NCBI RefSeq assembly: GCF_001269385.1 | Contig: NZ_CXOO01000022.1 | Coordinates: 124,001-188,000 of the forward strand | Length of the DNA: 64,000 nucleotides | Direction: 5' to 3' | Origin: Limnohabitans sp. DM1 | GTDB taxonomy: Bacteria > Pseudomonadota > Gammaproteobacteria > Burkholderiales > Burkholderiaceae_C | Shown: piece after piece, positions 34,265-59,573 of the stretch | Layout of the letters: each line of letters opens with the position of its first letter | How positions within the stretch are numbered: the stretch's first letter is position 1 | Notes under the pieces: generated by a model | Database searches by the model: none | Told to the model about the DNA's origin: nothing | Seen by the model: only the letters and a program-made list of their open reading frames with translations | Made by a program: the position numbers and the translations under genes

Positions 34265-36469
34265 TCAGAAGCGGCGCTGCGCCTCCAGCCCCAGCAGCAG
34301 CTTGCGCCCTGCACCCGGCTCAAAGAAACGACCGTTGCCATCGTTCACGATCACCGAGCCCGCATGCTTTTGATCGCTCAGGTTGTCCAACCGCACAAAC
34401 TCCTTGAGTGTCCAGTCCCCCCGCTCTTGCTTGAACTGCACACCCAGGTTGAACAAGGTGTGCGCCGCCGCCGCATCGGTGTTCAGGTCATTGACCATCA
34501 CCCGCCCCACATGCCGCGCCTCCAGCGTCACCCGACTGCCCGCCCAGCCCGTGTCCCAAGCCGCTTGCGCAAACAGCTGCTGCTTGGGCAGGCCCGGGAT
34601 CTGGTTGCCTTGCGGCACTTGCACCTGCGGGGTCGCGTTGGGGCAGCCCGCCGTGGTGCAGGTCAAAAACGCGTCCTGGTAGTTCGCCCGCATCCAGGTG
34701 TAGGCCGTGGTCAGCGTCACGGGGCCTGTGCGCCATTCGCCCGCAAGCTCCAGGCCTTGGCGCAGGGTGCGACCGGCGTTCTGGAACGTGGTGCGCCCGC
34801 CCGTGTTGTTTTGCACCACGATCTCGTCGTCGGTGCGGATGTCAAAGGCCGTTGCGCTCCAGCGCAGCTTTTCTGCGCGACCACGCAGGCCCAGCTCGGC
34901 GCTGGTGCTGCGGGCGGCGTTGAGTTCAGTATTGAAGCCAGAGACGCCACCGCTGCGGTAAGCCACTTCGTTGAGCGTGGGGATTTCATAACCCTTGCCG
35001 ATGCTGGCGAAGGCCTGCACGGATGGGCTCCACTGCCAACGCACACCGACCACGGGCAAGGTGGCTGTGTAGTCCTTGCTGCCACTGTCGTCACGGTTGG
35101 TGCCCACGATGTAACGGTCGGTGGATTCGTATTCGGTGCGGGTCTGGCGCACGCCGCCCATGAGCGTGAGGTCTTGTGTGCGCCACTCGACTTGCAGGTA
35201 CGGGTCCAGCGTTTGGGCGCGGTTGACTTCGTCGCGGCGCAGCTTGCCTTGCACGCCCAGCGCGCTGCCCACGAAGTTCTCGTAGCCTTTGCGCTTGTCA
35301 CTTTGGTGGTCGGATGCCAGGCCCGCGCTGAGCGACAGTCGACCGCCTTGCCAGTCGCGGTCATGCCGCCAGCGGGCGTTCCAGCCCCAGTAGTCGCGGT
35401 CCAGATCGATCACCCCGCCCGAGCTGCCTGCGGGCACTTGCGCGCCCGTGGTGATGGACTGGTACTGCACGACCTGGCGCTGGCCGCCATAGCCCATCAG
35501 CTCCAGCTTATGGCCACCGCCCAACGCTTGCTCAAAGGCCAGGCCCAGCTGGGTCTGCGAGACGGTTTTGCGAGTGTTGAAGCTGAGCGCCCCCGCATTG
35601 GTTTGGTCTGGGTTGGCGTCGAACTCGGCGCGGCTGAGGCCTTGTGGGTCCAGCGCCGAGCTGCTGTGGCGGTTGAACACCAGCACCGTGCGCCCGCCTT
35701 CATGCGGACGCGAGAGTTTCATGTTGGCCGTGCTGCGGTCAGCCGCCGACTGCGGGCGCGTGCCGTCGGTGGCAAAGCCGCTCACGTCCAGCGCATACGA
35801 CCAGCCCGGAGCCTGCGGTGTGCCGGTCTGGCCTGTAATTTGGGTGGAGGCGCGCCACAAGCCGTCAGAGCCTGCCACCACGCCCGTGCGCCACTGCGCG
35901 GGCTGCTGGCCGTCTTCGGTGTAGAGCAACAAAGCACCGCCCGACGATGAACCATAAAGCGCCGCCATGGGGCCACGCACCACTTCGACCCGGTCAGCGC
36001 TGCCCAGCGGGAAGTTCGCGGCCTGGCCTGACCCATCAGGGGCGCTGGCCGGGATGCCGTCCACAAACAGACGCACACCGCGCACGCCAAAGGTAGCGCG
36101 AGCGCCGTAGCCGCGCACCGATATTTGCAGGTCTTGCGCGTAGTTTTGCCGATTGCGGATCACCAAACCCGGCACGCGGCCCAAACCTTCAGACAGGTTG
36201 ATCTGCGCTTGTCCCTCGCGAAGCTCATCGCCCTCGACCACTTCAACCGAGGACGCGCCACGCCAAACCCCACCGCTTGAGCGCTCGGCAGTGACGACCA
36301 CGGGGGACAAGGCCCCAGCGTCGGACAGCTTCGCTGCCTGGGGCGCTGTCTGCGCTTGAGCGCCAGCGGCGCACAACAGGGCGATGGCCCAGGCCACGGG
36401 GGCCAGCTGGGCAGAAGAAGTCCGTTGCGTTGCTCGGCTTGGTGAATAACTCATGTGTACTGCATTCAT
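34265..36469 (-). CDS. TonB-dependent outer-membrane receptor in the PQQ region, copy 1
   Basis: The product has about 734 residues, with a signal peptide ending GAQAQ. A TonB-box-like stretch (SPVVVTAER), a plug domain (LGRVPGLVIRNRQNYAQDLQISVRG divided by the usual spacing, RVEVVRGPMAALYGSSSGG) and a barrel ending in AQRRF are present. The ligand is unknown. Neighbouring lanthanide-type PQQ enzymes allow a guess at a lanthanophore or PQQ, but siderophore uptake is equally possible. Starts at 36469 and 36454 are both plausible, with no strong ribosome-binding site for either. A 26-bp palindrome lies about 40-60 bases upstream. Confidence 0.85.
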   Translation of the reverse strand: MNAVHMSYSPSRATQRTSSAQLAPVAWAIALLCAAGAQAQTAPQAAKLSDAGALSPVVVTAERSSGGVWRGASSVEVVEGDELREGQAQINLSEGLGRVPGLVIRNRQNYAQDLQISVRGYGARATFGVRGVRLFVDGIPASAPDGSGQAANFPLGSADRVEVVRGPMAALYGSSSGGALLLYTEDGQQPAQWRTGVVAGSDGLWRASTQITGQTGTPQAPGWSYALDVSGFATDGTRPQSAADRSTANMKLSRPHEGGRTVLVFNRHSSSALDPQGLSRAEFDANPDQTNAGALSFNTRKTVSQTQLGLAFEQALGGGHKLELMGYGGQRQVVQYQSITTGAQVPAGSSGGVIDLDRDYWGWNARWRHDRDWQGGRLSLSAGLASDHQSDKRKGYENFVGSALGVQGKLRRDEVNRAQTLDPYLQVEWRTQDLTLMGGVRQTRTEYESTDRYIVGTNRDDSGSKDYTATLPVVGVRWQWSPSVQAFASIGKGYEIPTLNEVAYRSGGVSGFNTELNAARSTSAELGLRGRAEKLRWSATAFDIRTDDEIVVQNNTGGRTTFQNAGRTLRQGLELAGEWRTGPVTLTTAYTWMRANYQDAFLTCTTAGCPNATPQVQVPQGNQIPGLPKQQLFAQAAWDTGWAGSRVTLEARHVGRVMVNDLNTDAAAAHTLFNLGVQFKQERGDWTLKEFVRLDNLSDQKHAGSVIVNDGNGRFFEPGAGRKLLLGLEAQRRF

Positions 36470-36505
36470 GATCGTGTGGTGTTCAGTGGGTTGGGTACTC
36501 AATGC

Positions 36506-36531
36506 CACCATTTCGCGGTCTCGAAATGGTG
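36506..36531. promoter_or_regulatory. Perfect 10-bp-arm palindrome upstream of the TonB receptor
   Basis: CACCATTTCG - cggtct - CGAAATGGTG lies 37 bases upstream of the receptor start at 36469. Size and symmetry suit an operator for a dimeric repressor or activator. It does not resemble the Fur box or a riboswitch. It could alternatively form an RNA hairpin in the leader. Confidence 0.5.
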
Positions 36532-39746: not shown

Positions 39747-40235
39747 TTAATTTTCGCGGCGTGTTTCCAGATAGGTGCGGATGGCCCAGATGGCTTCCTG
39801 GCTCAAAGTCGCTTCAAAGGGGGGCATGTAGACGCGGCCGTCGCGGGTGCGGCCACGGCGCACGGTGGCCACATAAAACTCGTCCATCTCTGCCAGGCAG
39901 GCGCTTTTCTTTTGCGCATCGGCCATGCCCGTGCAATCGGCATCCATTTTGCGCAAGTCAGGGGCAATGCCGCCCGAAATGGCTTCCAGCCCGTGGCAGC
40001 GTGCGCAGTTCTGGTTGTAGGCCGAGGTGCCAATGCGCAAAGCCTCTTTGGCAGCAGGACCTGTGCTGTAAGGGTTGCTGGGCAGCCACTTGCTGCCCAG
40101 TTGGGGCAGGGTTTTGGTGTCCACTGCTTGGGGGGTCACATCGCCATGGGCCCACGCAGAGGCGCCCATCAACGCCATGGCCGCGGCCAAAAAAATGTTT
40201 CGCAAGCAGAAAAGGCGCAAAGAGGTGGTTTTCAT
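39747..40235 (-). CDS. pedF: PedF-type cytochrome c-550 of alcohol oxidation
   Basis: The 162-residue protein has a signal peptide ending ASAWA. The mature N-terminus (HGDVTPQAVDTKTLPQLG) and NQNCARCHGLEAISGGIAPDLR are typical of PedF. The heme c site is CARCH, and a Met ligand is likely in VYMPPF. PedF takes electrons from PQQ ethanol dehydrogenases and passes them to the terminal oxidase. A near-perfect sigma-54 promoter lies 39-54 bases upstream, and the divergent gene encodes a sigma-54 activator. Confidence 0.9.
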   Translation of the reverse strand: MKTTSLRLFCLRNIFLAAAMALMGASAWAHGDVTPQAVDTKTLPQLGSKWLPSNPYSTGPAAKEALRIGTSAYNQNCARCHGLEAISGGIAPDLRKMDADCTGMADAQKKSACLAEMDEFYVATVRRGRTRDGRVYMPPFEATLSQEAIWAIRTYLETRREN

Positions 40236-40273
40236 GAAATGAACTCGTGAAGTTGAAGAGGATGTTCGGACTT

Positions 40274-40289
40274 GGCAAATTGCGTGCCA
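40274..40289 (-). promoter_or_regulatory. Sigma-54 promoter of pedF
   Basis: On the minus strand, TGGCACG-CAAT-TTGC matches the -24/-12 consensus at every fixed base. The start of transcription should be near 40263, about 28 bases before the pedF start codon. The intergenic region (40236-40615) also serves the divergent activator gene. Confidence 0.88.
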
Positions 40290-40347
40290 TGTTTGTACCT
40301 GCCACATCGGCCCCTTGCAGTCACGAATGGCACAACCATTGCGCCAC

Positions 40348-40378
40348 CTGTCACATGCGGTGTTGCAAATGGTGACAG
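40348..40378. promoter_or_regulatory. Inverted repeat, probable activator-binding site for pedF
   Basis: CTGTCAC - N17 - GTGACAG lies about 85-115 bases upstream of the predicted sigma-54 start, the usual distance for an enhancer-binding protein site. GTGACA-type half sites also occur near the sigma-54 promoter of the aldehyde dehydrogenase. Confidence 0.5.
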
Positions 40379-40615
40379 TTTTCACGAATTACCCCTGTTT
40401 CACCCGCGGTTTCATGCGCACTGCCCTTGGCCGAAGTTTTGCATGTGTACGAAAACGATACACTTTGATCCCCGGGAGCTGTCTTGCGTCAAGAAAATGA
40501 AAGCTTCAGGCCCGACCATGGCATTCCGACCGAATCCACTGAGTCGGCCAACCTACAAGAATTAGACGGTATCTACAGCGCCCCCTGGGCGGTGATAGAT
40601 CCCCTAGGAGACACC

Positions 40616-42865
40616 ATGCTCAGCATGCCTGCACGCGCAGCGACCGCGGCCCACGGCCAAGGTCTGTATGCGCTGGACAGCGACCACCACCGCAGCGCGA
40701 TCCTGCAATCGCACGGGCGCAGCCATTCTTTCGGGTTACAGGCCTCGGAAAAACCCGACTTCTCACCGCTGCAAGCCCCGGACATTGCCAACGCCCGTGA
40801 TGAAAACCGCCTGCTGTACCAGCACGCCAGCCCCGTCATGGAAACCCTGTACGAGCAGATTGCCAACACGCACAGCATGGTGCTGCTGACGTCGAGCAAC
40901 GGGCTGATCTTGCACTCGCTGGGCGATGCTGATTTTTTGGAAAAAGCCTCCCGCGTGGCGCTGATGCCTGGCGTGGAATGGTCTGAGCAAAGCAAAGGCA
41001 CCAACGCCATTGGCACCGCCTTGACCGAGGGAAAACCCATGGTCGTGCACGGCAATGACCACTTTTTGCAGGCCAATCAGTTCCTGACTTGCTCGTGCAC
41101 CCCGATTTTTGACCCCTATGGCAAGGTCATGGGCGCATTGGACGTGACGGGCGATCAGCGCAGCTACCACCAACACACCATGGCCCTGGTGCGCATGTCG
41201 GCCCAGATGATCGAGAACAACATGTTTGCCAATGTGTTTCCCGACGCCATGCGCATTCACTTTCATGCTCGGTGTGAATTTCTCAGTACCTTGGTGGAAG
41301 GCATCATCGTCTTCACGCTGGACGGGCGTTTCCTGTCGGCCAACCGCAGCGCCCAGTTCCAGCTGGGTCTGTCGGTCAATGCCATGCAGGCCCACACCTT
41401 CTCCTCGCTGTTCAACCAGCCGATCTCCCAGTTTCATGACCGCCTGCGCCATGCAGCCGGTCAGCCCGTGAACCTGTGCATGCACAACGGCGTGCAGGTG
41501 TTTTGCCAAGCCCGGCTGAAAACCAGCCACTGGTTCAGCAGCATGCAAGAGGCGTTTTCTGCCCAGCCTTCGCCCCCGAGCACCCCAAGCCCACAGACCG
41601 AGGCGTCGCAGCCCCCCGCCCCCAGCCCGGCCACCCGCGCCACCACAGCGGCTGCGGCAGGTCGGGCCAGCCTGTCGAGCCTGCACTACCTGAACACTGG
41701 CGACCCGCAAGTGGCCGCCGTGCTGCACAAGCTGCAGCGCGTGCAGGGCAGCGACATCCCGATCATGATCCTGGGTGAAACGGGTACCGGCAAAGACATC
41801 CTGGCGCAGGCCATCCACAACGACTCGGCGCGTGCGCGGCGGCCCTTTGTGTCGATCAACTGCGCCTCCATTCCTGAAACCCTGATCGAGTCCGAACTCT
41901 TTGGCTACGAAGAAGGCGCGTTCACCGGTGCCAAGCGGCGCGGTGCACCCGGCAAAATCCAGATGGCCCACGGCGGCACGCTCTTTCTGGACGAAATCGG
42001 CGACATGCCCACCCAGCTGCAGGCGCGTTTGCTGCGCGTGCTGCAAGAGCGCCGGGTCACACCGCTGGGCTCGGGCAAGGAATACGAGGTGGACGTGATG
42101 CTCATTTGCGCCACCAATAAAAACCTCAAAACTCTGATCGCCCAGGGCCAGTTCCGCGAAGACCTGTACTACCGCTTGAACGGCCTGGTGGTGCGCCTGC
42201 CCGCCTTGCGCGAACGCTCGGACTTTGAGGTGGTGACCAACAAAATCCTGTTCAACCTGTGCACGCCAGAGCAGCACATCAGCGTGTCGCCCGGCGTCAT
42301 GACGCTGTTCAAGCAATACCGCTGGCCGGGCAACTTCCGCCAGCTGCACAACCTCTTGCGCACCGCCGTGGTCATGGTGGGCCACAGCGGCCAAATTGAG
42401 GTCGAGCACCTGCCCGACGATTTTCTGGACGAAGTGCAGCAGATCACCCGCGCGGGCACACCCGATCCATTGCCTTGCGAGGAGGCTGCATTGGGCATGC
42501 CCCAAGCGACAGGATGCGCCGCGCCGCCCTCGGCCGATGTGCAGGCGCTGCAATCAGCCCACCAGCGCGGCTTTTTCGCGCCAGGCCCGGTGGTCAGCGG
42601 CAGCACGGCTTCGGCGCCCTCAGGCCTTGCAGGCGGTGCCAGCGCAACACCTGTGTGGGTGGCACAAGCCCCTGCCACAGAGGGTCCCGTGGCCGTAACG
42701 CCCACTGGAAACACCGCACGTCTGCAAGACGTGGCCCTGCAAGCCATGACCGATGCGCTGCGCCAATGCCATGGCAATGTGTCAGCGGCAGCCAAGCTGT
42801 TGGGGGTATCGCGCAACACCATTTACCGCAAAAAAGAGCAGTTACCGGCCGACGTCTGGGGTTAA
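40616..42865 (+). CDS. Sigma-54-dependent activator of AcoR type
   Basis: The product has 749 residues from ATG 40616, which has AGGAG at ideal distance; the longer frame would begin with TTG at 40484 and is less likely. Order: GAF-like sensor (about 50-220, with GTNAIGTALTEGKPMVVHG), PAS-like domain (about 225-300), Pro/Ala-rich linker, AAA+ domain with Walker A GETGTGKD and the sigma-54 contact GAFTGAKR, and a Fis-type helix-turn-helix at the end (NVSAAAKLLGVSRNTIYRKK). AcoR-type proteins sense alcohol or aldehyde metabolites. It is divergent from pedF and the natural candidate to drive all sigma-54 promoters of this region. Confidence 0.92.
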   Translation: MLSMPARAATAAHGQGLYALDSDHHRSAILQSHGRSHSFGLQASEKPDFSPLQAPDIANARDENRLLYQHASPVMETLYEQIANTHSMVLLTSSNGLILHSLGDADFLEKASRVALMPGVEWSEQSKGTNAIGTALTEGKPMVVHGNDHFLQANQFLTCSCTPIFDPYGKVMGALDVTGDQRSYHQHTMALVRMSAQMIENNMFANVFPDAMRIHFHARCEFLSTLVEGIIVFTLDGRFLSANRSAQFQLGLSVNAMQAHTFSSLFNQPISQFHDRLRHAAGQPVNLCMHNGVQVFCQARLKTSHWFSSMQEAFSAQPSPPSTPSPQTEASQPPAPSPATRATTAAAAGRASLSSLHYLNTGDPQVAAVLHKLQRVQGSDIPIMILGETGTGKDILAQAIHNDSARARRPFVSINCASIPETLIESELFGYEEGAFTGAKRRGAPGKIQMAHGGTLFLDEIGDMPTQLQARLLRVLQERRVTPLGSGKEYEVDVMLICATNKNLKTLIAQGQFREDLYYRLNGLVVRLPALRERSDFEVVTNKILFNLCTPEQHISVSPGVMTLFKQYRWPGNFRQLHNLLRTAVVMVGHSGQIEVEHLPDDFLDEVQQITRAGTPDPLPCEEAALGMPQATGCAAPPSADVQALQSAHQRGFFAPGPVVSGSTASAPSGLAGGASATPVWVAQAPATEGPVAVTPTGNTARLQDVALQAMTDALRQCHGNVSAAAKLLGVSRNTIYRKKEQLPADVWG

Positions 42866-44074
42866 GGCACACCAGCTTGCCCAAGGGCTGTGGCGCTCGG
42901 CTTGCTCCAGCCAGCTCAACTCCACCTCGCGCCAGGCGCGCAGTTGGTTGAACGCATGCTGCTGGCGCTGCTGAGCTTTCCAGGCACTCTGCGCCTTCGC
43001 CTGCTGAGCAGGCTCTGAAAGTCCGCCCCTGTGCTGACCGTTGGTTGGCAGACCCGCCGCCTTCTGAAGGGAAGGGCTTTCTTGCAGCGATCCAGCCTCC
43101 CAAGCCGCAGGCCAAGGCACATGCTGCACCGCCTCGGCCTCTGACCAGCCCCGCTCCAGGCCCTGCCAGGCGTAGCTCACCAGACTGCACAGGTAGTGCT
43201 GTTGACGCAGCAAAGCCGCCTGCACTTGCCCCGGGCCACGCACCAGGTGCTGCCCCACCAGCCACTGCGGCTGCCATGCGCGCATGCGGGCCAGCGCATG
43301 CAGCCAGCCCTGCACGCTGCCTTGGGCCAACACGGGCAGCACATCGCCATCGACCAGCCCACCGGCCAGCACAATAGCCTCTTGAGCCGACCACAGCACC
43401 AAATCGCTTTCGGTGTGGGCATGGCGCATGTCGTGCACCTGCCAAGACCGCCCCCCGGCCTGCACCAGTTGCCCGTCATGCAACACCTCGGTGGGCAACA
43501 CGATGCGGCTGCCGCGAGAGGCTTGTTCGCCCAAATCGTGCTGCAAGGCCGCCAGGCAATCGGGGCAGCGCTGGCGCATGGCTTGCTGAGTGCCCAATGT
43601 GGCGGCCACAACCACGTCCACGCTCGCACCCATGGGCACAGCCGGTGCAGCTCGGCGCTTTGCGGCTTCGACTTGGGGCACATCGGCCGATGCCTCAGGC
43701 ACCCAGGCCGCATTGGCCAGCACTTGCTCGGCATGCGCATGGGTGTTGATCAGCCGCGTGACCGACGACGCGGGGTGGCGGCATTTCAGGTCTTTTTGCA
43801 AGGCCTGCCCAACGCCATAGGTCGGCCCGGGGTCGATGACTGTCACATCGGCGTTTTGCCCCAGCACCACCGTGGTGGCCGCGTGCGAGCGCCCATCTTC
43901 GGTGACCGCATGCCACTGCCCATGCACCACCGCCACCCCAGGCAACACCGTCTGCCAAGCCAGCTCGGGCGGGTCGGTGCACGGTGCAGCCCCTGTGGGC
44001 CAGGCCAGCAGAGCCAAGCTGCATCCCACGATCCAGCGAAGCTGAGCACAGCGCACGCGCAACACTTGTGTCAA
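42842..44074 (-). CDS. MBL-fold protein of the quinoprotein region (relay-system type 2-like)
   Basis: The product has about 410 residues. The likely start is TTG 44074 or GTG 44065; no ATG fits, and the longest frame runs through the opposing sigma-54 promoter. A signal peptide ends near PTGAAP. The metallo-beta-lactamase fold shows VVLGQNADVTVIDPGPTYG and HAHTESDLVLW, but the metal motif reads NTHAHAEQ rather than HxHxDH. It also has a CPDC pair. Its exact role in PQQ enzyme function is unknown. It overlaps the activator gene's end by 24 bases, convergently. Confidence 0.7.
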   Translation of the reverse strand: MTQVLRVRCAQLRWIVGCSLALLAWPTGAAPCTDPPELAWQTVLPGVAVVHGQWHAVTEDGRSHAATTVVLGQNADVTVIDPGPTYGVGQALQKDLKCRHPASSVTRLINTHAHAEQVLANAAWVPEASADVPQVEAAKRRAAPAVPMGASVDVVVAATLGTQQAMRQRCPDCLAALQHDLGEQASRGSRIVLPTEVLHDGQLVQAGGRSWQVHDMRHAHTESDLVLWSAQEAIVLAGGLVDGDVLPVLAQGSVQGWLHALARMRAWQPQWLVGQHLVRGPGQVQAALLRQQHYLCSLVSYAWQGLERGWSEAEAVQHVPWPAAWEAGSLQESPSLQKAAGLPTNGQHRGGLSEPAQQAKAQSAWKAQQRQQHAFNQLRAWREVELSWLEQAERHSPWASWCALTPDVGR

Positions 44075-44166
44075 GCCCGCCCCCTCACTTGCTCCATATT
44101 GGAACAAGTCCAGGCCCCCGGGTCGCCCGTGTGTCGGCTCTTCGGGTGAAAGTTGTTCAGAATGGG

Positions 44167-44182
44167 TGGCACTTTTGTTGCT
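44167..44182 (+). promoter_or_regulatory. Sigma-54 promoter of the TolQR-like operon
   Basis: The sequence TGGCACT-TTTG-TTGC matches the consensus, with GG and GC 12 bases apart. The start of transcription should be near 44193, about 100 bases before the first gene. Just after it, a GGAGG-preceded two-codon frame (ATG GTT TGA, 44202) is present, which may be chance. Confidence 0.78.
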
Positions 44183-44294
44183 CTGTGACAAAGGAGGGGC
44201 AATGGTTTGAACGACCAGATCGGTGGACACCGGCATGGTCGCACATGCAGCACTTGCCATGCCAGCCCGTTTATTTTTTGGAGTGGACCCCCGC

Positions 44295-45056
44295 ATGAAT
44301 GCTCTTGCCCCTTCGGCCAGTCGATGGCACCAACGCATGTGGGGTGCCCTGCTGGTCAAACGCCTGCCGGTGCTGGGCCGCCCCAGCCTGTCGCTGGAGC
44401 AAGCGCCCCAAGGCCTGTTCCTGCTGTGGCTGGCCTTCATGGGCCTGCTGGTGTTTGGGGCAGCGGTGATGTGGCAACACGGCCTGTGGCACCGCTTGGT
44501 GCAGGCCGACCCCACGGGCCTGACCATCGTCATCGTGCTGCTGTTCATCGGCTGCTCGGTCTGGGCGGGTCTGCGCTGCTGGGCGCTGGGTTTGCAATGG
44601 CAGGCGCTGCAAAGCGGTGGGGCCATGGCCACGGCCGAACAAGCCAGCTGGGCGCACGACTACCTGCAAGCGCGTGGCCATGCGCACACCGACAAAAGCA
44701 TCTTGCTGCAAGTGCTGAGCGACCGGGCGCACGGCCCGCAAGAGATGGCCTGGTGGCTCAACGGCATCCAGCTCAAGCTGGGCTTGCTGGGCAAGGTGAT
44801 CGGTTTTTCGGTGCTGGCCCTGGAGCTGGGCCGCATGGACGGCTTTGACCCGCAGCAATCGGCGCAAATGCTCAAAAGCCTGACCGGCGGGCTGGGCATT
44901 GCTCTGCTGACCACCATCACCGGGCTGGCGGCCAACATTTTGCTGGGCCTGCAACTCATGCGCATTGACCGCTTTGCCGACGGCCTGGTGGCCGAGATTT
45001 TGACGCTGGGCGAGGCGCAGGCCATGCAGCCTGCAGGCACCGGGGCAGCCGAATGA
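44295..45056 (+). CDS. MotA/TolQ/ExbB-like proton-channel protein
   Basis: The 253-residue protein has four probable membrane segments (about 41-60, 75-97, 162-178, 198-221). The last two form the conserved channel region: LLGKVIGFSVLALELG and GGLGIALLTTITGLAANILL, with Thr206, Thr207 and Thr209 in the place of TolQ channel threonines. It should form a pentameric stator around the TolR-like partner and use proton flow. The start is MNALAPS, with GGAG upstream; a longer frame from 44235 is possible. The stop overlaps the next gene by 4 bases. It is not TolQ itself: tolA, tolB and pal are absent. Confidence 0.8.
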   Translation: MNALAPSASRWHQRMWGALLVKRLPVLGRPSLSLEQAPQGLFLLWLAFMGLLVFGAAVMWQHGLWHRLVQADPTGLTIVIVLLFIGCSVWAGLRCWALGLQWQALQSGGAMATAEQASWAHDYLQARGHAHTDKSILLQVLSDRAHGPQEMAWWLNGIQLKLGLLGKVIGFSVLALELGRMDGFDPQQSAQMLKSLTGGLGIALLTTITGLAANILLGLQLMRIDRFADGLVAEILTLGEAQAMQPAGTGAAE

Positions 45057-45664
45057 GCATTGGCCGCAGCACCCGCGACACCGAGACGGACCCGTTTTAC
45101 GACATGTTGTTCAACATGTTGATCGCCTTCGTCTTTTGCTTTGTGATCGCGTTGCTGTCTTTCAACCCGCAGGCCAAAAAAGCGGGTGACGTGCCCGCCA
45201 AGGCCGAGTTCATGATCACCGTGTCCTGGCCCGACGAAAACCCCAACGACCTGGACACCTGGGTGATGGAGCCCGGCGGCAAGCTGCTGTGGTTTCGCCA
45301 GCGCGATGTGGGCATGCTGCACCTGGACCGCGACGACCGGGGCGACAAAAACAATTCGGTGGTGGTCAACGGCAAAACCGTGACCAGCGCCGCCCGGCAA
45401 GAAATCGTCACCCTGCGCGGCCTGGTGGCAGGCGAATACGTGGTCAACGCCCACTATTACGAAAGCCGCAACCAACTGCCCGTGGACGCCACCGTGACCG
45501 TGGTCAAGATCAACCCCCAGGCCGAAATCGTCTTCACCGGCACCCAGCAAATCGGCGCCAAAGGCGAAGAGCGCACCCTGGTGCGCTTTTCGATTGACGA
45601 CAAGGGCCAGGTGCTGGACGTGAGCACGGCCCCCAAACCCATCGTGATGCGCTCGGGCATCTGA
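45053..45664 (+). CDS. TolR/ExbD-like stator protein with DUF2135-like periplasmic domain
   Basis: The 203-residue protein has one N-terminal membrane segment (about 18-38) preceded by Asp17 in DPFYDMLFNMLIAF, the position of the proton-carrying Asp in TolR/ExbD/MotB. The periplasmic part is not the TolR fold and has no OmpA-type peptidoglycan motif. It is a beta-rich domain with DLDTWVMEPGGK and LHLDRDDRGDKN, resembling DUF2135/YfaP-type domains with acidic, possibly metal-binding loops. It is translationally coupled to the upstream channel gene (ATGA overlap). Confidence 0.75.
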   Translation: MSIGRSTRDTETDPFYDMLFNMLIAFVFCFVIALLSFNPQAKKAGDVPAKAEFMITVSWPDENPNDLDTWVMEPGGKLLWFRQRDVGMLHLDRDDRGDKNNSVVVNGKTVTSAARQEIVTLRGLVAGEYVVNAHYYESRNQLPVDATVTVVKINPQAEIVFTGTQQIGAKGEERTLVRFSIDDKGQVLDVSTAPKPIVMRSGI

Positions 45665-45687
45665 ACACCCCTCCCTGAAAAACCCAC

Positions 45688-46212
45688 ATGATCCCTACCA
45701 CCACCACCGAACTGCTCTGGCTGGCCATCGCCTACGCCCTGCTGGCCTTTTTGCTGCTGTGCCTGTGCCTGGCCACCCGTTGGCACTGGCTGCTCAAGGC
45801 GGTCATGGTCATCGTGGTCAGTGGCTTTTTTCTGTTCCACAACCAAGTGCTGCGCGGCATTGCGGGCTGGCCGGCCGACGACGCCTTGCCGCCGCGCTTT
45901 GTGCTGCTGTCGGCCGTGTTTGACGAGCCCAGCCCGGCACGCCACCACCCCGGCGCGATCTACATCTGGGTCAATGAAATCAAAGACCACGAAGCGCTGG
46001 ATCTGCCCCGCGTGCACCGCCTGCCCTACGAAAAAGATTTGCACCGCATCCTGGGCGACGGCATCAAGAAAGCCCGCGACGGCAACACCCAGATCGGCAC
46101 CACCGAGCCGCGCCGCGGCCAAGGCGGCCTGCCTTGGTTGCGCCCGGCCAACGACGACAAGGTGCAAATCAAACTCAGCGACCTGCCCCGTGCGCAGCTG
46201 CCCGAAAAATGA
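45688..46212 (+). CDS. Membrane protein of unknown function, third gene of the TolQR-like operon
   Basis: The 174-residue protein has two close membrane segments (about 8-28 and 32-52) and a soluble C-terminal part of about 120 residues, with GAIYIWVNEIKDHEALDLP and HRLPYEKDLHRILGDGIKKA. I do not recognise the family. It lies 23 bases after the TolR-like gene and overlaps the lipoprotein gene by 4 bases, so all four are one operon. It may link the stator to the lipoprotein, which is an inference from order only. Confidence 0.7.
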   Translation: MIPTTTTELLWLAIAYALLAFLLLCLCLATRWHWLLKAVMVIVVSGFFLFHNQVLRGIAGWPADDALPPRFVLLSAVFDEPSPARHHPGAIYIWVNEIKDHEALDLPRVHRLPYEKDLHRILGDGIKKARDGNTQIGTTEPRRGQGGLPWLRPANDDKVQIKLSDLPRAQLPEK

Positions 46213-46916
46213 ACGCCATGAAAACTCTGTACTTGGGTGCCGCATCACTGCTGGGTGTGCTGGGCCTGTCGGCCTGTTCGCCGGATGCGGGGCCGGTCTG
46301 GTTTCCGCTGCGCTCAGGTGACGTGACCCGCTACGAAGTGCGCTACAACCCCGAATCGGCCCGCGACGACGAAGTCTGGACTTTGCGCACACGCGGCCCT
46401 GTGGACTGGCAAGGCAAAAGCTATATGCAGCGCCACCATTCACAAGGCGTGGCCTACTATTTAGAGGTCAATGAAAAAGGCGTGCGCCGCGTCGCGCACC
46501 AAACCGACATGGACCGCGAACCGCTGGCCGACGAATCGCCCATGTGGGTGCTCAAAGCGCCGTATCAGGTGGACACCGAGTGGACCAACCCCACCGTGCC
46601 CTATTTGCTGATGCGCAAAAACGAATACCCCCGCGAACTCAAATACACCCACAAAACCACCATGACATGGCGCATCGTGTCCGTCAAAGAGGAGGTCAAA
46701 CTGCGCTCAGGCGAGGTGCTCTCGCCCTGCCTGCACGTCAAGGGCGAAGCCTTTTTGAACCTCTACACCGACCCCGTGAACGGCTTCACCGACGTGCCCC
46801 TGACCAGCCACGAGTGGTACTGCCAAGGCCAGGGCCTGGTCAAATTCACCCGCGAAGAAAAAGTGCTGGCGGGTTTTTTGACGGGTGGGGCGTTGACGGC
46901 GGAGCGGGTGCGCTGA
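46209..46916 (+). CDS. Lipoprotein of unknown function, fourth gene of the TolQR-like operon
   Basis: The 235-residue protein has a lipobox (GVLGLSAC). The mature part is beta-rich, without a family I recognise: SGDVTRYEVRYNPESARDDEVW, then GKSYMQRHHSQGVAYYLEV and SHEWYCQGQGLVKFTREEK. It resembles in general shape the periplasmic lipoproteins that measure or bind an envelope component. The ATG overlaps the preceding stop (ATGA). The operon ends here, 35 bases before a convergent gene, with no clear terminator. Confidence 0.75.
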   Translation: MNAMKTLYLGAASLLGVLGLSACSPDAGPVWFPLRSGDVTRYEVRYNPESARDDEVWTLRTRGPVDWQGKSYMQRHHSQGVAYYLEVNEKGVRRVAHQTDMDREPLADESPMWVLKAPYQVDTEWTNPTVPYLLMRKNEYPRELKYTHKTTMTWRIVSVKEEVKLRSGEVLSPCLHVKGEAFLNLYTDPVNGFTDVPLTSHEWYCQGQGLVKFTREEKVLAGFLTGGALTAERVR

Positions 46917-47621: not shown

Positions 47622-49817
47622 TCAAAACGCGTAACGCAGCCCCGCCACCACCATGCGGCCCCGACCGGCTTGCAGGCCATTGGCGCGAGAGGCAAAGTAC
47701 TTTTTGTTCGCCAAGTTTTCGCCACTCAGGAAGTAGCTCACTTTCTGGCCCTTGGGCGCATACGAGATGGAGGCGTTGTACAGGGTCAAGGAGGGAATTT
47801 CGCCAAACAAGCCGCAGTCGGCCTGACTGGCACCATCGACGTCTGCGCAATAGCCTTCAGCAGAGGTGCCCCGGTAGTTGTCGGTGTTGGCAAATTGTCG
47901 GCTGATGTAAGTGACCCCCACGCGGGCCTGCAGACCCTGCGGACCTTCGTAAGACAGGTTCATGGCCAATGCGTGCTTGGGGGCGTATGGCAAGCGGTTG
48001 CCGGCCTGGTAAGAGCCGTAGCCATCCTCACCCTCGCCGCCCACCTGGCCGCTGTCCTTGAATTTGGCCGTCATCAAATGGGTGTAGGCCAGGCTGGCAA
48101 AGTAGTGGTTTTTCTGCCCCGTGAGTTCCCCCAGATTGAGCTTGCCGCTGAGTTCAAAGCCGGTGTGCTGCGCCCGACCTTCGTTCCGGAAAATCCCACC
48201 GGACTGCACGACGATGTCGCTGATGTCCATGTTGAACAGCGTGGCCTCCAGGTGGCCGCTCTTGAGCAAGCCCGTGCGCACGCCCAGCTCGGTGGTGGTT
48301 GACAACTCAGGCGTCACCTTTTGCAGTGTGTTGTTGTCAATGTCGCGGTCTGGCCGAGGGGGCGCAAAGCCGCGATGGATGCCGCCAAACACCGTGGTGC
48401 CATTCAGACCGTTCCAGGTCCAGCCCAAACCGGGCAAGGCTTGCAGCTTGCTGGTGGTCAAGCTGCTTTCCAGGGTATCAAAAGCGGCCCCTGTGGCCGA
48501 GCTGTAGAGTTTTTTACGGGAGGTCACATCTTCCAGGCGAAGACCGGGTGTGATGGTCCAATCGCCCGCGATGAAGGTGTTTTGCGCGTAGTAAGAAATG
48601 GCCCTGATTTTGGCTGTCAGGCGTTCGTCTGCGGCATTGACCTCGTTGAAACTGTCTCCGACCAGTTTCTTACGGTCCACATTTTCCGAGTGGTATCGGA
48701 AGCCCAGGATGGTCTGGTTTTTCAAGCCAAATGCGTTGTGCTTGATTTCCAGTTTGGGCTCAATGCCAAAAAATTCGTACTGTCGGGGCCGGATGGCGTA
48801 TTCGCCCCGGCCCATGCCAAACGCGTTGTCGACATCGTCGTACTCAAACTCTCTGGATCGGTGCGATTGGCGGTCTGTTTTGGAATAGTAAAACTGCGTG
48901 CTCAGCTTGGTGTTTTTGTTCAGATCCCATTCGTGAACCAACTGCGCTGTTTGGCGGTCCATGGTGAAGCGTTCCATGGCGTCTTCGGCTTGGTCAAAGC
49001 TGCCCTTGTAGCGCGATGCCGTGTATTCGGCCGCAGTCAAGCCGGTTTCACTGAAGAGGGAGTTTTCCTTGAAGGACGAGAGCTTGCCCGTGATGCGTTG
49101 CTCGTTGTTGATTTTGAACTGCGCTTTGAGGGCCACATCCTGCACATCAAAGTGGTGCTCTGCGCGAATGCCGTCGCCCCGCTTTTTCAGCACATCCAGC
49201 ATCACGCCACCGTTTTCGGTGCCGGTGCCCAAATTGAAATGGGCACCTTGGTACGCTTGCTGCCCGGCAGTGACTTTCACCGAGCCAGTGGCCCCCTGCG
49301 TGGGCACGGGCCGGGTGACAAAGTTGATCATGCCGCCCATGGTTTGCGGGCCGTACAGGATTTGACCTGAGCCCTTCAACACCTCCACGCGCTCAACGCG
49401 CTCCAAAGGCGTGCTGTAGTGCGAGGATGGATCGGCGTAGGGTGCAAAAAACACCGTGGGTGCACCGTCTTCGAGCAGCAAAGTGCGCGAGCTGCGGCGG
49501 GGGTTGAGGCCGCGCATGCCGATGTTCAGGTGCGTGCCCGCCACGTCCTCGGCCACCACATGTAAACCCGGAATTTCACGGATGGTCTCGACGATGGAAA
49601 AGGGTGCGCGCGCCTCGATTTGCGCCTGGGTCAGGACCGAATAAGAGCCGGGCAGGTTTTCAATGCTGCTGGGCAATATGCTGGCGCTTTTGACCACCAC
49701 CACGGACGTGCTGTTGGACGGTGCAGCGTTTTGGGCCGCTGCATACGTGGTGAACACTGACAAAACAGCGGTGGCAACCAAGGTGTGAGGGTGTCGTGTG
49801 CTCATGGGTTTTTTCAT
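47622..49817 (-). CDS. TonB-dependent outer-membrane receptor in the PQQ region, copy 2 (FecA-like)
   Basis: The 731-residue receptor has a signal peptide ending TTYAAAQ, a plug (IREIPGLHVV, NIGMRGLNPRRSSRTLLLEDG, GSGQILYGPQTMGG) and a barrel ending in VAGLRYAF. The plug is FecA-like, but no N-terminal signalling domain for an anti-sigma factor is present. The ligand is unknown: ferric citrate, another chelate, or a lanthanide complex are options. Starts at 49817 and 49805 are equally good. A small exported protein gene follows. Confidence 0.85.
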   Translation of the reverse strand: MKKPMSTRHPHTLVATAVLSVFTTYAAAQNAAPSNSTSVVVVKSASILPSSIENLPGSYSVLTQAQIEARAPFSIVETIREIPGLHVVAEDVAGTHLNIGMRGLNPRRSSRTLLLEDGAPTVFFAPYADPSSHYSTPLERVERVEVLKGSGQILYGPQTMGGMINFVTRPVPTQGATGSVKVTAGQQAYQGAHFNLGTGTENGGVMLDVLKKRGDGIRAEHHFDVQDVALKAQFKINNEQRITGKLSSFKENSLFSETGLTAAEYTASRYKGSFDQAEDAMERFTMDRQTAQLVHEWDLNKNTKLSTQFYYSKTDRQSHRSREFEYDDVDNAFGMGRGEYAIRPRQYEFFGIEPKLEIKHNAFGLKNQTILGFRYHSENVDRKKLVGDSFNEVNAADERLTAKIRAISYYAQNTFIAGDWTITPGLRLEDVTSRKKLYSSATGAAFDTLESSLTTSKLQALPGLGWTWNGLNGTTVFGGIHRGFAPPRPDRDIDNNTLQKVTPELSTTTELGVRTGLLKSGHLEATLFNMDISDIVVQSGGIFRNEGRAQHTGFELSGKLNLGELTGQKNHYFASLAYTHLMTAKFKDSGQVGGEGEDGYGSYQAGNRLPYAPKHALAMNLSYEGPQGLQARVGVTYISRQFANTDNYRGTSAEGYCADVDGASQADCGLFGEIPSLTLYNASISYAPKGQKVSYFLSGENLANKKYFASRANGLQAGRGRMVVAGLRYAF

Positions 49818-52720: not shown

Positions 52721-54439
52721 TTACTTCATCATCTTGAAGGTCCAGACGGACCCGCCTTGTTCGAGGAAGTTGACCTTCTTGGCCACTTCACCGCCCCACA
52801 GCGGAACCGCGCCACCCCAGCCAGAGACCACGGACACGAATTGGTCATTGCCTTCTTTCCAGGTGATGGGAGGTGCCACGATGCCAGAGCCGGTCTGGAA
52901 CTGCCACACCACTTTGCCGGTCTTGGCATCCGCGGCCTTCAGGTAGCCTTCAGGCGTGCCCCAGAACACCAGGTCGCCAGCCACCAGCACACCGCCCCAC
53001 AGAGGCGCTTCGTTCTTGACTTCCCACTCGATCTTGCCGGTCTTGGGGTTCACAGCACGCAGCGAGCCGATGTAGTCGTCGTACAAAGGCTTGATGGTGA
53101 AACCAGCGCCCAGGTAAGCCGCGCCTTTTTTGTAGGTGACGGGCTCGTTCCAGATTTCCATGCCCCATTCATTGGAAGGCACATAGAACAATTTGGTCTT
53201 GGGGCTGTAAGCCATGGGCATCTGGTTTTTGCCGCCCAGGAAGCCTGGGGCTGCAAACACCGCTTTGCCTTTTTGGCCATCACCGCCTGGGCCTGTGGGA
53301 TCGCCAGGGCGGTTTTCAGGCACAAAGTTGGGACGACCTGTCTTCAAGTCAATGCCATTGGCCCAGGTGGTTTTGGTGACAAACGGGAAGGCATTTTCCA
53401 ATTTGCCGGTGGTGGCGTCGTTTACATAGAAATAACCGTTGCGGTCGGCTTTGCCGCCCATGAGTTTGCCGTCCATGTCGAACAGCACAAACTCGTTGGT
53501 GCCGTCATAGTCCCAGCCGTCGTTAGGGGTGTTCTGGTAGTGCCACTTGATCTGACCCGATTTCACATCGATGGCCACCGTCGAGGTGGAGTACAGGTTG
53601 TCACCCTTGCGCAGGTGGCTGTTCCAAGGGCCGGGGTTGCCTGTGCCGAAATAGGCCAAGCCGGTTTTGGCGTTGAAAGTGCCACCCATCCAGGTGGAAG
53701 CGCCACCGGTCTTCCAGGTATCACCCGGCCAAGTGGCGTTGGTGGTGCCGGTGATGCCGTTTTCCTTGCCATCTTTGTAGCCCATGTGACCTTCGACCAC
53801 GGGACGGGTCCAGACCATCTTGCCGGTCTTGGGGTCTCGCGCTTCCACACGACCCACCACACCAAATTCACCACCCGACACGCCCGTCAAGAGCAAGCCA
53901 TCGGCAATCAAAGGCGCAGCGGTATAGCTGTAGCCTGCTGAGTAGTCGTCGATCTTCTCGCGCCACACCACTTTGCCGGTGTTTTGGTCGAGTGCCACCA
54001 ACTGGGCGTCCAACGTGCCGAAGATGACCAGGTTGTCAAACAAGGCTGCGCCACGGTTGATCACGTCGCAGCAAGGCATGATGCCTTCGGGCAGGCGGTG
54101 CTCGTACTTCCAGAGCTTTTTGCCGGTCTTGGCATCCAGCGCAAAAATGCGCGAGTAAGAGGCCGTGACGAACATCTTGCCGCCATGGACCAAGGGCTGC
54201 GATTGCTGACCGCGCTGCTTTTCACCACCGAATGACATGGACCACACAGGCACCAGTTTGCTGATGCTTTTGGCGTTGACGTCAGTCAAGGGCGAATAGC
54301 GCTGGCCGTGTGTGCCCAGACCCGAGGACAGAACGTCGTTGGTCGTGGCGGCGTCCTTGGTGATCATGTCATTGGTCACTTGGGCGCCCGCTTGTGCGGC
54401 GGCAATCATGACGAGCAAGCTTAAGAGTTTGAGTTTCAC
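52721..54439 (-). CDS. PQQ-dependent alcohol dehydrogenase with lanthanide-type active site
   Basis: The 572-residue periplasmic quinoprotein has a signal peptide cut after AGAQ. It has the eight-bladed propeller of the MxaF/XoxF/ExaA family, with the vicinal disulfide Cys123-Cys124 (MPCCDVINR). Likely metal ligands are Glu191 and Asn268. The catalytic base Asp310 is followed by Asp312 (WDYDG); the second Asp is the recognised mark of lanthanide-dependent enzymes such as XoxF, ExaF and PedH, while calcium enzymes have Ala or Ser. It oxidises primary alcohols and passes electrons to a cytochrome c. A sigma-54 promoter lies upstream. Confidence 0.93.
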
Positions 54440-56470: not shown

Positions 56471-57322
56471 TCAAGCCGCGCCGCGTTGGCGCATCCAGCC
56501 GCGCTGCGGGTCGTAACCACGCACCGCCAGCGCAAAAAAGAACAGCGTGCCCAGCACGCCCACCAGCCAGCCGGTGGCGTAGGTTTGCCCTTGCAAGGCG
56601 AAACGCATCGTCTCCACCGCTTGTGTGAAAGGGTTGAGCAGCGCCAATTGGTAAAGCCACCCGGCCCCGGCTTCTTCAAATTTCCACAAGGGGTAAAGGG
56701 CCGAGCTGATGAAGAACATCGGAAAAATCACGAAGTTCATGGCACCCGCAAAATTTTCCAGCTGCCGCACATACACCGACAGCACCAAACCCATCGCGGC
56801 CATGAGCACGGCGGCCAGCACCATGGCCGGCAGCGCCAGCAAGGCGTGCAGCGGGGCCACATCGACCCACAACACCCAAGCCACGCCTAAAAAAACCACC
56901 ATTTGCAGCACCGACAAACTGGTGCCCGCCAGCAGCTTGAAGGCCAGCAACCAAGCGCGGTTCAAGGGTGCCGTGAGCAGCAAGCGCATCAGACCCATCT
57001 CGCGGTCGTAGACCAGGGACAGCGAGCTTTGCATGCCGTTGAACAGCGCGATCATGCCCAGCAAGCCCGGCAGCATGTAGACCTTGTATTCGATGTAGGT
57101 CTCATACGGTGGAATGATGGACACCCCGAACACGTTCTGAAAACCCGTGGCAAACACCACAAACCACAGCAGCGGCCGCACCAGAGCCGAGGCCAGGCGT
57201 GCGGGTTGACGCAAGAACTTGTGGATCTCGCGCCCGACCACGGCACGCAAGGCCCGCAGCAAATGCAGGCCTTTGCCGGGTGGGCTTTGCGGGGGCTGCA
57301 CGTTCAAGGTTTGGCTTTGCAT
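56471..57322 (-). CDS. ABC transporter permease of the PQQ alcohol system (PedC-like)
   Basis: The 283-residue ABC-2-type permease has about six membrane segments, including LVRPLLWFVVFATGF, YMLPGLLGMIALFNGMQ and FVIFPMFFISSALYPLW. It belongs with the ATPase encoded at 60781 and the binding protein encoded just upstream, as in Pseudomonas ped clusters, where this transporter is tied to alcohol oxidation but its cargo is unclear. The start overlaps the end of the binding-protein gene by 19 bases. Confidence 0.87.
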   Translation of the reverse strand: MQSQTLNVQPPQSPPGKGLHLLRALRAVVGREIHKFLRQPARLASALVRPLLWFVVFATGFQNVFGVSIIPPYETYIEYKVYMLPGLLGMIALFNGMQSSLSLVYDREMGLMRLLLTAPLNRAWLLAFKLLAGTSLSVLQMVVFLGVAWVLWVDVAPLHALLALPAMVLAAVLMAAMGLVLSVYVRQLENFAGAMNFVIFPMFFISSALYPLWKFEEAGAGWLYQLALLNPFTQAVETMRFALQGQTYATGWLVGVLGTLFFFALAVRGYDPQRGWMRQRGAA

Positions 57323-58569
57323 GGGCTTTCTTTTTCATCGACACCCAGGGTGTCCATCACTTCAACCGGGTGCAAGACGCCCTCCAGCGGCGCTGTCCCC
57401 ACAACACCATCCACATGGCTCAAAAACAGGGGCTGGCGCAACTGGCCATCCCAAGCGCGGTAAGACAGGCGTGGCCCTTTGGCACCGTCCACAAACACCT
57501 GGCCGTTGCGCAACAAGCGGGCTTGTTCGGGCAAGGCGGCTTTGCTGTGATCGCTGACCAGGGCCGCGATGGATTTGACGGCCACCCAGGCTGCCCAGTC
57601 TTGCCCGACCATGGGGCGTTGCGCCTGTCGCGCAAAGCGTCGGTTGACCTGCGGGCCGCCGTTGCGTTCCCACTGGGTGTGCCAGGCCAAGGCCACCAAA
57701 CCGTTGGCCCCCACCACCGGGCGGGGTTGCTGAGTGGCGTAGGGCAGCGTGCGGGCAAACTCGCCATCGGCGTCCATCACCGCCACCACATCGTGGTTGC
57801 GGTCGTTGGTGAGCAAGCGGGTGTTGGCCAGATCGCGCTCTCGCGGATCGCCCGAGAGCTTGAAGGCCTTGGTGTCCACCGTTTTGATGCCATAGCGCTT
57901 GGCCGCCCGTTGCCAGGCCTGGCCTTGCAGCTGGTCGGCGGCTTCGGGGCCTTGCAGCACCAGCGCGTTGCGCCACGAACGCGCCGCCAGATACTGGGCC
58001 AGCGCATCGCTCAACATGGCTTGACTGGGGTAGCTGTGAAACAGCATGGCCGCGCACTGGCTGCCCCGCAGGGCATCGGCAGCGGCGCTGGCGTTGAACA
58101 ACAAGGCACTGCTGCCTGCGGCCTGCACGGCTTGGGCCAACTGGGCTTCGGGCAGATCCAGCACCCAATAGGCCACACGGTCGTTTTTGAGTTGCTGCAA
58201 GACCTTGCCCAGATCCGCAGCGCTGCCCGCCGTGGCTTCGATCACTTTGATCGAGTGCCCGGCCGCACGCAAACCGACTTCGGCATCGCTGGCCCCCAAC
58301 TGCGCCGCTTGCAACAAGCGCCCGGCGGGATGACCCGGGTAACGGCGCTCCAGACGGCGGCTTTGGTAACGGGTGTCGTCGTCCAAAGACACCAAGGCCA
58401 CCGTGTAATTGGCCGCCTGCGCCACGGGTGCTGCGCTCAGGCCCACGGCCAGCAGACTCAGTGCCGTCAACGCCTTTGCAGCCAAAACTGGCTGCAAAAA
58501 ACCTGGGGCAAATCGTGCTTGCTCCTGGTTGGTGCTGGCCCCACTGCGGCCATCGGGGCTGGGCGTCAT
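57304..58569 (-). CDS. ABC substrate-binding protein of the PQQ alcohol dehydrogenase system
   Basis: The 421-residue exported protein is a periplasmic binding protein-like fold (YTVALVSLDDDTRYQSRRLE, KNDRVAYWVLDLPEA, RNALVLQGPEAAD, HDVVAVMDADGEFARTLPYA). Its pattern matches the binding protein that accompanies PQQ alcohol dehydrogenases. The signal peptide is internal (LTALSLLAVGLSAAPVAQAA), preceded by about 33 extra residues, so a later start is possible, though the ATG overlaps the preceding stop (ATGA). The ligand is unknown. Confidence 0.83.
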   Translation of the reverse strand: MTPSPDGRSGASTNQEQARFAPGFLQPVLAAKALTALSLLAVGLSAAPVAQAANYTVALVSLDDDTRYQSRRLERRYPGHPAGRLLQAAQLGASDAEVGLRAAGHSIKVIEATAGSAADLGKVLQQLKNDRVAYWVLDLPEAQLAQAVQAAGSSALLFNASAAADALRGSQCAAMLFHSYPSQAMLSDALAQYLAARSWRNALVLQGPEAADQLQGQAWQRAAKRYGIKTVDTKAFKLSGDPRERDLANTRLLTNDRNHDVVAVMDADGEFARTLPYATQQPRPVVGANGLVALAWHTQWERNGGPQVNRRFARQAQRPMVGQDWAAWVAVKSIAALVSDHSKAALPEQARLLRNGQVFVDGAKGPRLSYRAWDGQLRQPLFLSHVDGVVGTAPLEGVLHPVEVMDTLGVDEKESPCKAKP

Positions 58570-59573
58570 GGGCTCACCAGCGGGGTGTGGGGCACACGGC
58601 CTGCGGCCACGGTGCGGATGGCTTTGCCTGCCTGCGTGTCCACCAAGGTCATGTCATCGGACAAGCCATTGGTCACGTACAGCTGTTTTTCATCCTGGCT
58701 CAAGGCCATGCCCCAAGCCCGCTTGCCCGCCAGCACGGTGCGGCGCACTTTGCGCGTGGCCACATCGACCTCGGCCACATGGTTGGCTTTGCCAAGGCTG
58801 ACCCAGGCGGTCTTGCCGTCTCGCGTCATGACCACGCCCACCGGGGTGATGTCGCTGGCGCGCATGCCCTTGATGTCAAAGGTGATGGTGCCCTTGACGG
58901 TGTGGGTCTTGCCATCGATCACCGACACATTCGAACTCAGCTCATTGCTGACCCATATTTCACGGCCATCCGGCGAGGCGGCAAAGCGCCGTGGGCGATT
59001 GCCCACTTTGATGTCTTTGACGATTTTTTTGCTGCTCAGATCAATCAGGTGAACCAAATTGGCTTCCTCGGAAGTCACATACGCAAATTTGCCATCGCGG
59101 GTGAGCATCACACCCTCGGGCTCGCCCCCGGTTTTGACCTCGAACAGCGGTTTTTTGGTGGCCAGGTCATAGGCTGCGAGCACACTGTCGTCTTCAATCG
59201 AGACATACGCCACCTTGCCATCCGGGCTCAGGTCAAAAATTTCAGGGCTGTCACCCAGTGCCACGGTATCGACCATCTTGCCGCTGGCGCGGTCCACCAC
59301 GCCGAGCTGGTTGCTGTCACCGCAACACACATAAATTTTGGACGGGTCTTTGCTGAACATCATGTGGCGCGGGCGTTTGCACACATCGATCTTGGATTGC
59401 AACTTGCCTGCGGCATCGAACACCAGCACCTGGTTGTCCTTTTCAGAGGACACATAAACGCTTTGAGCTTGGACCCGTCCAGCCCAAGACAGCGCCAGAG
59501 CCACGGCAAAGGTGCAGGCCGTCAAACCTCGTACGAGGGGGGTGCGGGGTGATTTCACGAAAGAGGTCTCCAT
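58566..59573 (-). CDS. YVTN-type beta-propeller protein of the PQQ alcohol system
   Basis: The 335-residue exported protein is a seven-bladed YVTN-type propeller, with blades marked by DNQVLVFDAAGK, IYVCCGDSNQLGVVD, VAYVSIEDDSVLAAYD, FAYVTSEEANLVHLID, IWVSNELSSNVSVID and LYVTNGLSDDMTLVD. It matches the PQQ-dependent catabolism-associated propeller proteins found with the Ped ABC system. It is the first gene of a five-gene operon with overlapping ends, driven by a sigma-54 promoter at 59632-59648. Confidence 0.88.
   Translation of the reverse strand: METSFVKSPRTPLVRGLTACTFAVALALSWAGRVQAQSVYVSSEKDNQVLVFDAAGKLQSKIDVCKRPRHMMFSKDPSKIYVCCGDSNQLGVVDRASGKMVDTVALGDSPEIFDLSPDGKVAYVSIEDDSVLAAYDLATKKPLFEVKTGGEPEGVMLTRDGKFAYVTSEEANLVHLIDLSSKKIVKDIKVGNRPRRFAASPDGREIWVSNELSSNVSVIDGKTHTVKGTITFDIKGMRASDITPVGVVMTRDGKTAWVSLGKANHVAEVDVATRKVRRTVLAGKRAWGMALSQDEKQLYVTNGLSDDMTLVDTQAGKAIRTVAAGRVPHTPLVSP

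Follow-up and report, generated by a model that had tools for sequence, protein, structure and literature searches.

A four-gene cassette resembling proton-driven envelope motors accompanies genes of quinoprotein alcohol oxidation in Limnohabitans sp. DM1 and related bacteria

Proton-driven motors of the bacterial inner membrane serve motility, nutrient import, envelope integrity and defence, and the described systems closest to the locus presented here are Tol-Pal, ExbB-ExbD-TonB and the pairs ZorAB and MotAB. PMC12905483 describes Thr145 of TolQ as essential. In alcohol oxidation with pyrroloquinoline quinone (PQQ), the delivery of PQQ and metal to periplasmic quinoproteins and their entry into these enzymes are poorly understood. 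According to PMC6839425, PedA1A2BC is required for growth of Pseudomonas putida at low La3+, and PMC7391723 reports that orf6 and orf7, two uncharacterised genes located beside pqqE, are needed for full growth of Methylorubrum extorquens on methanol with La3+. Here we describe four genes, A to D, on a stretch of 64,000 nucleotides from Limnohabitans sp. DM1 (contig NZ_CXOO01000022.1, positions 124,001 to 188,000), hereafter the window. They form a conserved cassette that lies mostly within pqq and ped operons. We read it as a candidate proton-driven motor serving PQQ enzymes, in which A to D would assist the loading of periplasmic quinoproteins with PQQ or its metal, a reading to which we give somewhat less than an even chance; the exact step stands lower in our assessment than the broad claim.

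The profile of the A proteins aligned by hhalign with the TolQ/ExbB of the same genome across residues 157-243, which hold the two channel helices (E 1.7e-5, probability 78.8), although the single sequence stayed below the gathering score of Pfam MotA_ExbB (E 0.003, 17.7 bits against 22.9). Judged by this profile similarity, A qualifies as a homologue of genuine TolQ/ExbB across both helices. It shares with the Tol-Pal channel the motif G-x-x-G-x-V-x-G and the Thr pattern of transmembrane helix 3. Four hydrophobic regions were counted, against three expected for TolQ, which we take to recall the MotA-type topology. Of 99 A proteins, 90 have Lys at position 167, equivalent to TolQ Thr145, eight have Thr and one has Asn, whereas all five aligned TolQ/ExbB-type proteins of the same genome carry Thr. 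Thr is retained at the position of TolQ Thr178 in 98 of the 99, so that the pair of pore threonines is incomplete in most of them. A search of solved structures by sequence matched A only to a designed protein.

Protein B has one hydrophobic helix (residues 14-37) bearing Asp17, which is present in 97 of 101 aligned B proteins and replaced by Val in four loci (L147, L148, L149 and L153) of a distant family, f88. In the domain behind the helix, D66, D68, R93, D94, D95 and E117 were invariant in all 101 sequences. Comparison of profiles confirmed this putatively periplasmic domain as homologous to DUF2135 (hhalign probability 97.2, E 4.5e-11; reversed-profile control E 0.52). BLASTP found three of four DUF2135 sequences (best E 1e-5), and the single sequence scored below the Pfam threshold (E 0.14, 12.7 bits; gathering score 22). 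The motifs W-x-x-x...D-x-D-x-W-V-x-x-P, R-D...G and P-G-x-Y are common to both groups. The four DUF2135 proteins compared, which we take to be of the YfaP type, are part of frames of 1034-1084 amino acids; in B the domain instead follows a TolR-type helix. No match was obtained for B to ExbD in Pfam or to ZorB at E<=1, to any NCBIfam model at E<=0.1, to a peptidoglycan-binding family in the Pfam scan or to a solved structure by sequence. B of the window is 100% identical to its counterpart in Limnohabitans sp. WS1 and 96% identical to that in Limnohabitans sp. Bal53, and it matches PHROG 1735 (E 3.8e-4), a group without a named function. Distant relatives, A-B-C or B only, occur among phage-like genes in L151 (B at 9703-10266) and L150 (B at 9732-10334), where the neighbours encode DUF1353 and a long beta-helix protein that carries a carbohydrate-binding module.

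Protein C has overlapping N-terminal hydrophobic peaks, which are compatible with two membrane segments, and matched no Pfam family above cut-off (one match lay below it), no NCBIfam model and, in the sequence search, no solved structure. Its C-terminal motif reads LPEK in 86, LPGK in 4 and MPEK in 2 of 98 C proteins. Protein D has an end resembling a lipobox, LSAC-S, and such a pattern is present in 70 of 82 D proteins, some of the misses being wrongly called starts. Structure modelling predicts for D a barrel like that of YmcC and LolA, of the kind also seen in RseB and LmcA. D matched nothing in the Pfam and NCBIfam scans, its best solved structure by sequence had E 0.68, and its PHROG match at 1e-3 is to a group without a named function. 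In a Variovorax locus (L074:11106-11797) D is broken over two open reading frames, by decay or by sequencing error.

Set against Tol-Pal, the cassette combines a related channel, a partner with a single Asp-bearing membrane helix and a predicted outer-membrane lipoprotein, with energetics that are likely alike; it departs from Tol-Pal in the Lys at the Thr145 position, the DUF2135-type domain of B and the predicted barrel of D. TonB, TolA, TolB and Pal were absent from the 17 flanking window proteins scanned, and a TolQ above cut-off is encoded elsewhere in the genome. ExbB-ExbD-TonB has the same type of channel and the same order of channel protein and Asp-helix protein, but B lacks the ExbD match and the cassette consists of four colinear genes. 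ZorAB and MotAB differ in that B matches neither ZorB nor a peptidoglycan-binding family and in the PQQ context of the cassette; a defence role of the Zorya kind was rejected, the ZorA model giving only a weak match to A (E 0.061). No library scanned (Pfam, NCBIfam and other models) gave the cassette a name. Likewise, no such cassette was described in the titles and abstract openings of the literature matches listed, a set with few subscription papers, and the main text of PMC12997753 (2026), on the ped cluster of Pseudomonas, does not contain the words TolQ, ExbD or proton channel. An earlier note on this DNA had proposed a combination outside the named systems, with a TolQ/ExbB-like channel, a TolR-like partner carrying Asp17 and a DUF2135-like domain, a two-segment membrane protein and a lipoprotein, and without TonB, TolA or Pal; these points held up, the missing partners and names within the proteins and libraries scanned, and the point on C to the extent that its peaks fit two segments.

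A search with B yielded 1561 proteins at E<=0.001, the best 120 of which were viewed, and by scanning named genomes we confirmed 506 relatives, the best 80 of which were kept as named loci. All four genes were present and colinear in 77 of these 80. The three exceptions are L041, which starts inside A and in which D was not seen, L100, which ends inside C, and L080, in which A was matched and its start uncalled. This constancy of order is beyond chance. In the window the four reading frames, taken for a single operon in the earlier note, all lie on the plus strand at 44295-46916. A and B overlap by four bases, as do C and D, and 23 bases separate B from C; a longer frame for A would begin at a GTG at 44223. 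The numbers of A and B proteins (99 and 101) are counts of loci, some genomes being present twice (e.g. L016 and L027).

The gene directly upstream of A could be called in 77 of the 80 named loci. On the same strand it was pqqE in 32 (0-141 bases away), the PedC permease gene of the Ped ATP-binding cassette (ABC) system in 16 (within 15 bases in 14 of them) and pqqB in five; it was a divergent metallo-hydrolase gene, as in the window, in ten. NCBIfam models verified PqqB, C, D and E in L040, PqqE in L018 and PqqB in L087. The position next to pqqE also recalls that described for M. extorquens orf6/orf7. Genes were called by codon usage, which left 78 named loci (L065 and L101 were too short), and five ped/PQQ markers were counted, namely PedF, PQQ dehydrogenase, PedC, the substrate-binding protein and the propeller. 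At least one lay within 10 kb in 48 of 50 cassette loci with full flanks, compared with none of 20 control loci around tolQ, which came from 20 of the 31 cassette genomes defined below (one control being just 11 kb long). A marker was also present in 22 of 28 named loci with short flanks, and in 74 of the 78 when pqq genes were included. The four genes therefore recur together beside PQQ dehydrogenases, which the earlier note had named as support for its view, and the association extends into the pqqBCDE and ped ABC operons; it is stronger than had been guessed. A minority of cassettes (Comamonas, Polynucleobacter, f88 and L020) stand apart from PQQ genes. In L155 (6548-8590) a NosR-type gene, below cut-off, follows D directly on the same strand and precedes a PQQ dehydrogenase gene, and in L160 (Comamonas) an NnrS gene stands before A.

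The association was also apparent in whole genomes. B matched in 32 of 200 genomes of the family, and leaving out one weak match (G789, E 5.6e-6) gave 31 cassette genomes; in the phylum 19 of 398 genomes had matches, of which 14 were strong after G399, G487, G448, G366 and G439 (E 2e-27 to 7e-4) had been set aside. PedF scored above cut-off in 28 of the 31 cassette genomes versus 26 of 169 others (Fisher 4e-16), and pqqE was present in 13 of the 14 phylum genomes with a strong match versus 58 of 384 others (Fisher 8e-10), p-values that are both too small because the genomes are related to each other. None of the five excluded phylum genomes has pqqE above cut-off, so that the count including them is 13 of 19. 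Family f88 contributes 10 of the 14, and all ten have pqqE, never next to the cassette. A PQQ dehydrogenase above cut-off was found in 31 of 31 cassette genomes and pqqE in 24, which indicates that the cassette tracks the enzymes more than PQQ synthesis. The tolQ model had two to eight matches in each of the 31 genomes, one of them above cut-off, and other motors of this type are thus present.

In the mechanism that we propose, A and B would likely form the proton-driven inner-membrane part, by comparison with TolQR and ExbBD and with the possible exception of f88. An A5B2 motor would carry protons by way of Asp17 in B, which Lys167 of A may face, and would act on D. C is likely an adaptor and D likely an outer-membrane partner that binds lipid or a small ligand; B and C would touch D across the periplasm. 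The invariant acidic residues of B may bind metal. The task of the machine would be to load or retain PQQ and/or Ca2+/Ln3+ at quinoproteins, not to export newly made PQQ. With pqq and ped genes as operon partners, the PQQ system is the likely client, and the relative of the PedA1A2BC permease gene before A in 16 named loci would place the machine at cofactor or metal loading.

Several observations weigh against this reading. With the 80 loci chosen as the nearest among 506 relatives, their uniformity is overstated. In the stretch available for L057 and L066 (Comamonas) and L061 and L062 (Polynucleobacter), ped/PQQ markers and pqq genes were both absent, and L020 and the four f88 loci named above had none of the five ped/PQQ markers either. 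PQQ dehydrogenase above cut-off also occurs in 24 of 26 PedF-positive genomes that are free of the cassette. The D-x-D motif, found in 54 of 56 PQQ dehydrogenases of cassette loci (window included) and in 30 of 30 of cassette genomes, is present in 24 of 29 from cassette-free genomes, and the cassette was for this reason rejected as a marker of lanthanide enzymes. The four f88 loci combine Val at position 17 of B with Thr at position 167 of A, and D was not seen in them; in this version protons may not drive the machine in the customary manner. Because their B carries a Lys four residues past Val17 where A keeps the Thr that is Lys elsewhere, the sequences make a change of charge pairing between A and B possible. 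In the other loci Lys167, if it faces Asp17, could neutralise it. Lastly, the modelled fold of B is predicted to be TerD-like, but the TerD sequence profile matched B only with probability 1 (E 0.05; the unrelated profile of D scored 4) and Foldseek by itself listed no TerD among its best 50 matches. TerD, a cytoplasmic protein, was rejected as a true relative since the predicted fold agrees and the sequence profile does not.

Among other explanations, a Tol-Pal-like mover of lipids or lipoproteins that guards the outer membrane during alcohol oxidation, linked to PQQ by regulation only, appears unlikely. The predicted barrel of D is of a suitable kind and some cassettes lie away from PQQ genes; the link to pqqE nevertheless persists at genome level where adjacency is lost, as in the ten f88 genomes, and a TolQ above cut-off is already encoded in 31 of 31 genomes.

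It is quite unlikely that A, B and C, acting without TonB, energise the cluster's TonB-dependent receptors (PqqU-like and others) for uptake of PQQ or metal chelates. Receptor genes flank the window cassette on both sides and the energetics resemble those of ExbBD, but the Pfam and NCBIfam scans assigned neither C nor D to a TonB-type family, a receptor gene was present in 26 of 78 named loci and in none of the 32 adjacent to pqqE (stretches up to 20 kb), and the two to eight tolQ-model matches per genome show that other motors of this type exist.

That the machine uses the proton gradient to export freshly synthesised PQQ into the periplasm is very unlikely in our view. For the route out of the cytoplasm PMC7391723 offers no more than the suggestion of an ABC exporter, and A lies directly behind pqqE or pqqB in 37 of 77 loci. 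Seven of the 31 cassette genomes, however, possess PQQ dehydrogenases and lack pqqE, which argues against export of new PQQ and favours a role in the periplasm or at the enzyme itself. To our knowledge, moreover, no motor of the TolQ/TolR type is an inner-membrane solute carrier.

A highly improbable alternative is a signalling channel through which a histidine kinase and response regulator encoded nearby would sense metal status or proton-motive force: such genes lie near several beta-proteobacterial cassettes and adjoin A, B and C in the four f88 loci, where A is divergent from the kinase gene, but they occur in only 4 of 32 pqqE-adjacent loci and no sensor domain was recognised in A to D by the same scans.

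If the motor indeed serves quinoproteins, its genes directly behind pqqE would open the delivery of PQQ and metal to genetic testing, and cofactor maturation would join the tasks of this class of motors. The exchange of Thr for Lys and the loss of Asp in f88 probe current ideas on how protons drive such machines. The more far-reaching view, of a new branch of proton-driven envelope motors in which Lys replaces the essential pore Thr and the periplasmic domain is DUF2135/TerD-like and binds metal, a branch devoted to a single redox cofactor and loading PQQ and Ca2+/Ln3+ into periplasmic quinoproteins, we consider doubtful.

The features of the window are compiled in Table 1. The D-Y-D motif of its PQQ dehydrogenase is presumably of the lanthanide type. 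The sigma-54-type site before A scores 19.0 of 19.5, a value that the upstream region never reached when shuffled 100 times, and sites with scores of 18-19 were also found in L016 and L022-L027. No strong site was found in Hydrogenophaga-type loci, where A directly follows pqqE. A sigma-54 promoter common to all cassettes was rejected: with the threshold loosened, a site was present in 72 of 99 upstream regions versus 53.6 expected from shuffles; only single strong sites count. The earlier claim that sigma-54 drives the cassette would therefore apply to Limnohabitans-type loci and a few others and not to the Hydrogenophaga type.

Table 1. Position of the cassette, its regulatory site and neighbouring features in the window
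Feature	Position	Strand	Length, basis or remark
Gene A, TolQ/ExbB-like channel protein	44295..45056	+	253 amino acids counted from ATG
Gene B, TolR/ExbD-like, single membrane helix and DUF2135-type beta-sandwich	45053..45664	+	203 amino acids
Gene C, membrane protein, hydrophobic near the N terminus, with a part predicted to be periplasmic and the C-terminal motif LPEK	45688..46212	+	174 amino acids
Gene D, predicted outer-membrane lipoprotein, YmcC/LolA-like barrel	46209..46916	+	235 amino acids
Sigma-54-type site TGGCAC-N5-TTGCT	44167..44182	+	128 bases upstream of the ATG of A
Codon of A Lys167, equivalent to TolQ Thr145	44793..44795	+	alignment of A proteins
Codon of B Asp17, predicted proton-carrying residue	45101..45103	+	conservation
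TonB-dependent receptor, PqqU-like	34265..36511		619 bits, below the cut-off of 1200
PedF, cytochrome c-550	39747..40385	-	TIGR04494, 208.8 bits, above cut-off
Sigma-54-dependent activator (GAF, PAS, AAA+, Fis-type helix-turn-helix)	40484..42865	+	Pfam
Metallo-beta-lactamase-fold protein, kin to quinoprotein relay hydrolases, divergent from A	42842..44080	-	TIGR04559/TIGR04558, below cut-off
Second TonB-dependent receptor	47622..49817		other side of the cassette
PQQ-dependent alcohol dehydrogenase, D-Y-D motif at residues 310-312	52721..54439	-	TIGR03075, 728 bits, above cut-off
PQQ alcohol dehydrogenase system: PedC permease, ABC substrate-binding protein, beta-propeller	56471..59573	-	TIGR03861 and TIGR03866 above cut-off, TIGR03863 just below

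Some further genes were recorded around the cassettes. Just 3' of D in the window, on the opposite strand (46952-47551), lies a gene for a 199-amino-acid protein without a Pfam or NCBIfam family, a relative of which adjoins D in 11 called loci. In 17 loci the gene directly behind D belongs to a single cluster, represented by a TctC relative in L072, and a gene for a TctC-type binding protein is located within the ped cluster of the window (59840-60784). In the f88 locus L148 (6749-8931) A-B-C is followed by a metallophosphoesterase gene and then by one whose product unites a protein kinase with a universal stress domain, and L153 has genes resembling both. The window itself begins with an open frame of 3483 amino acids (65-10516).

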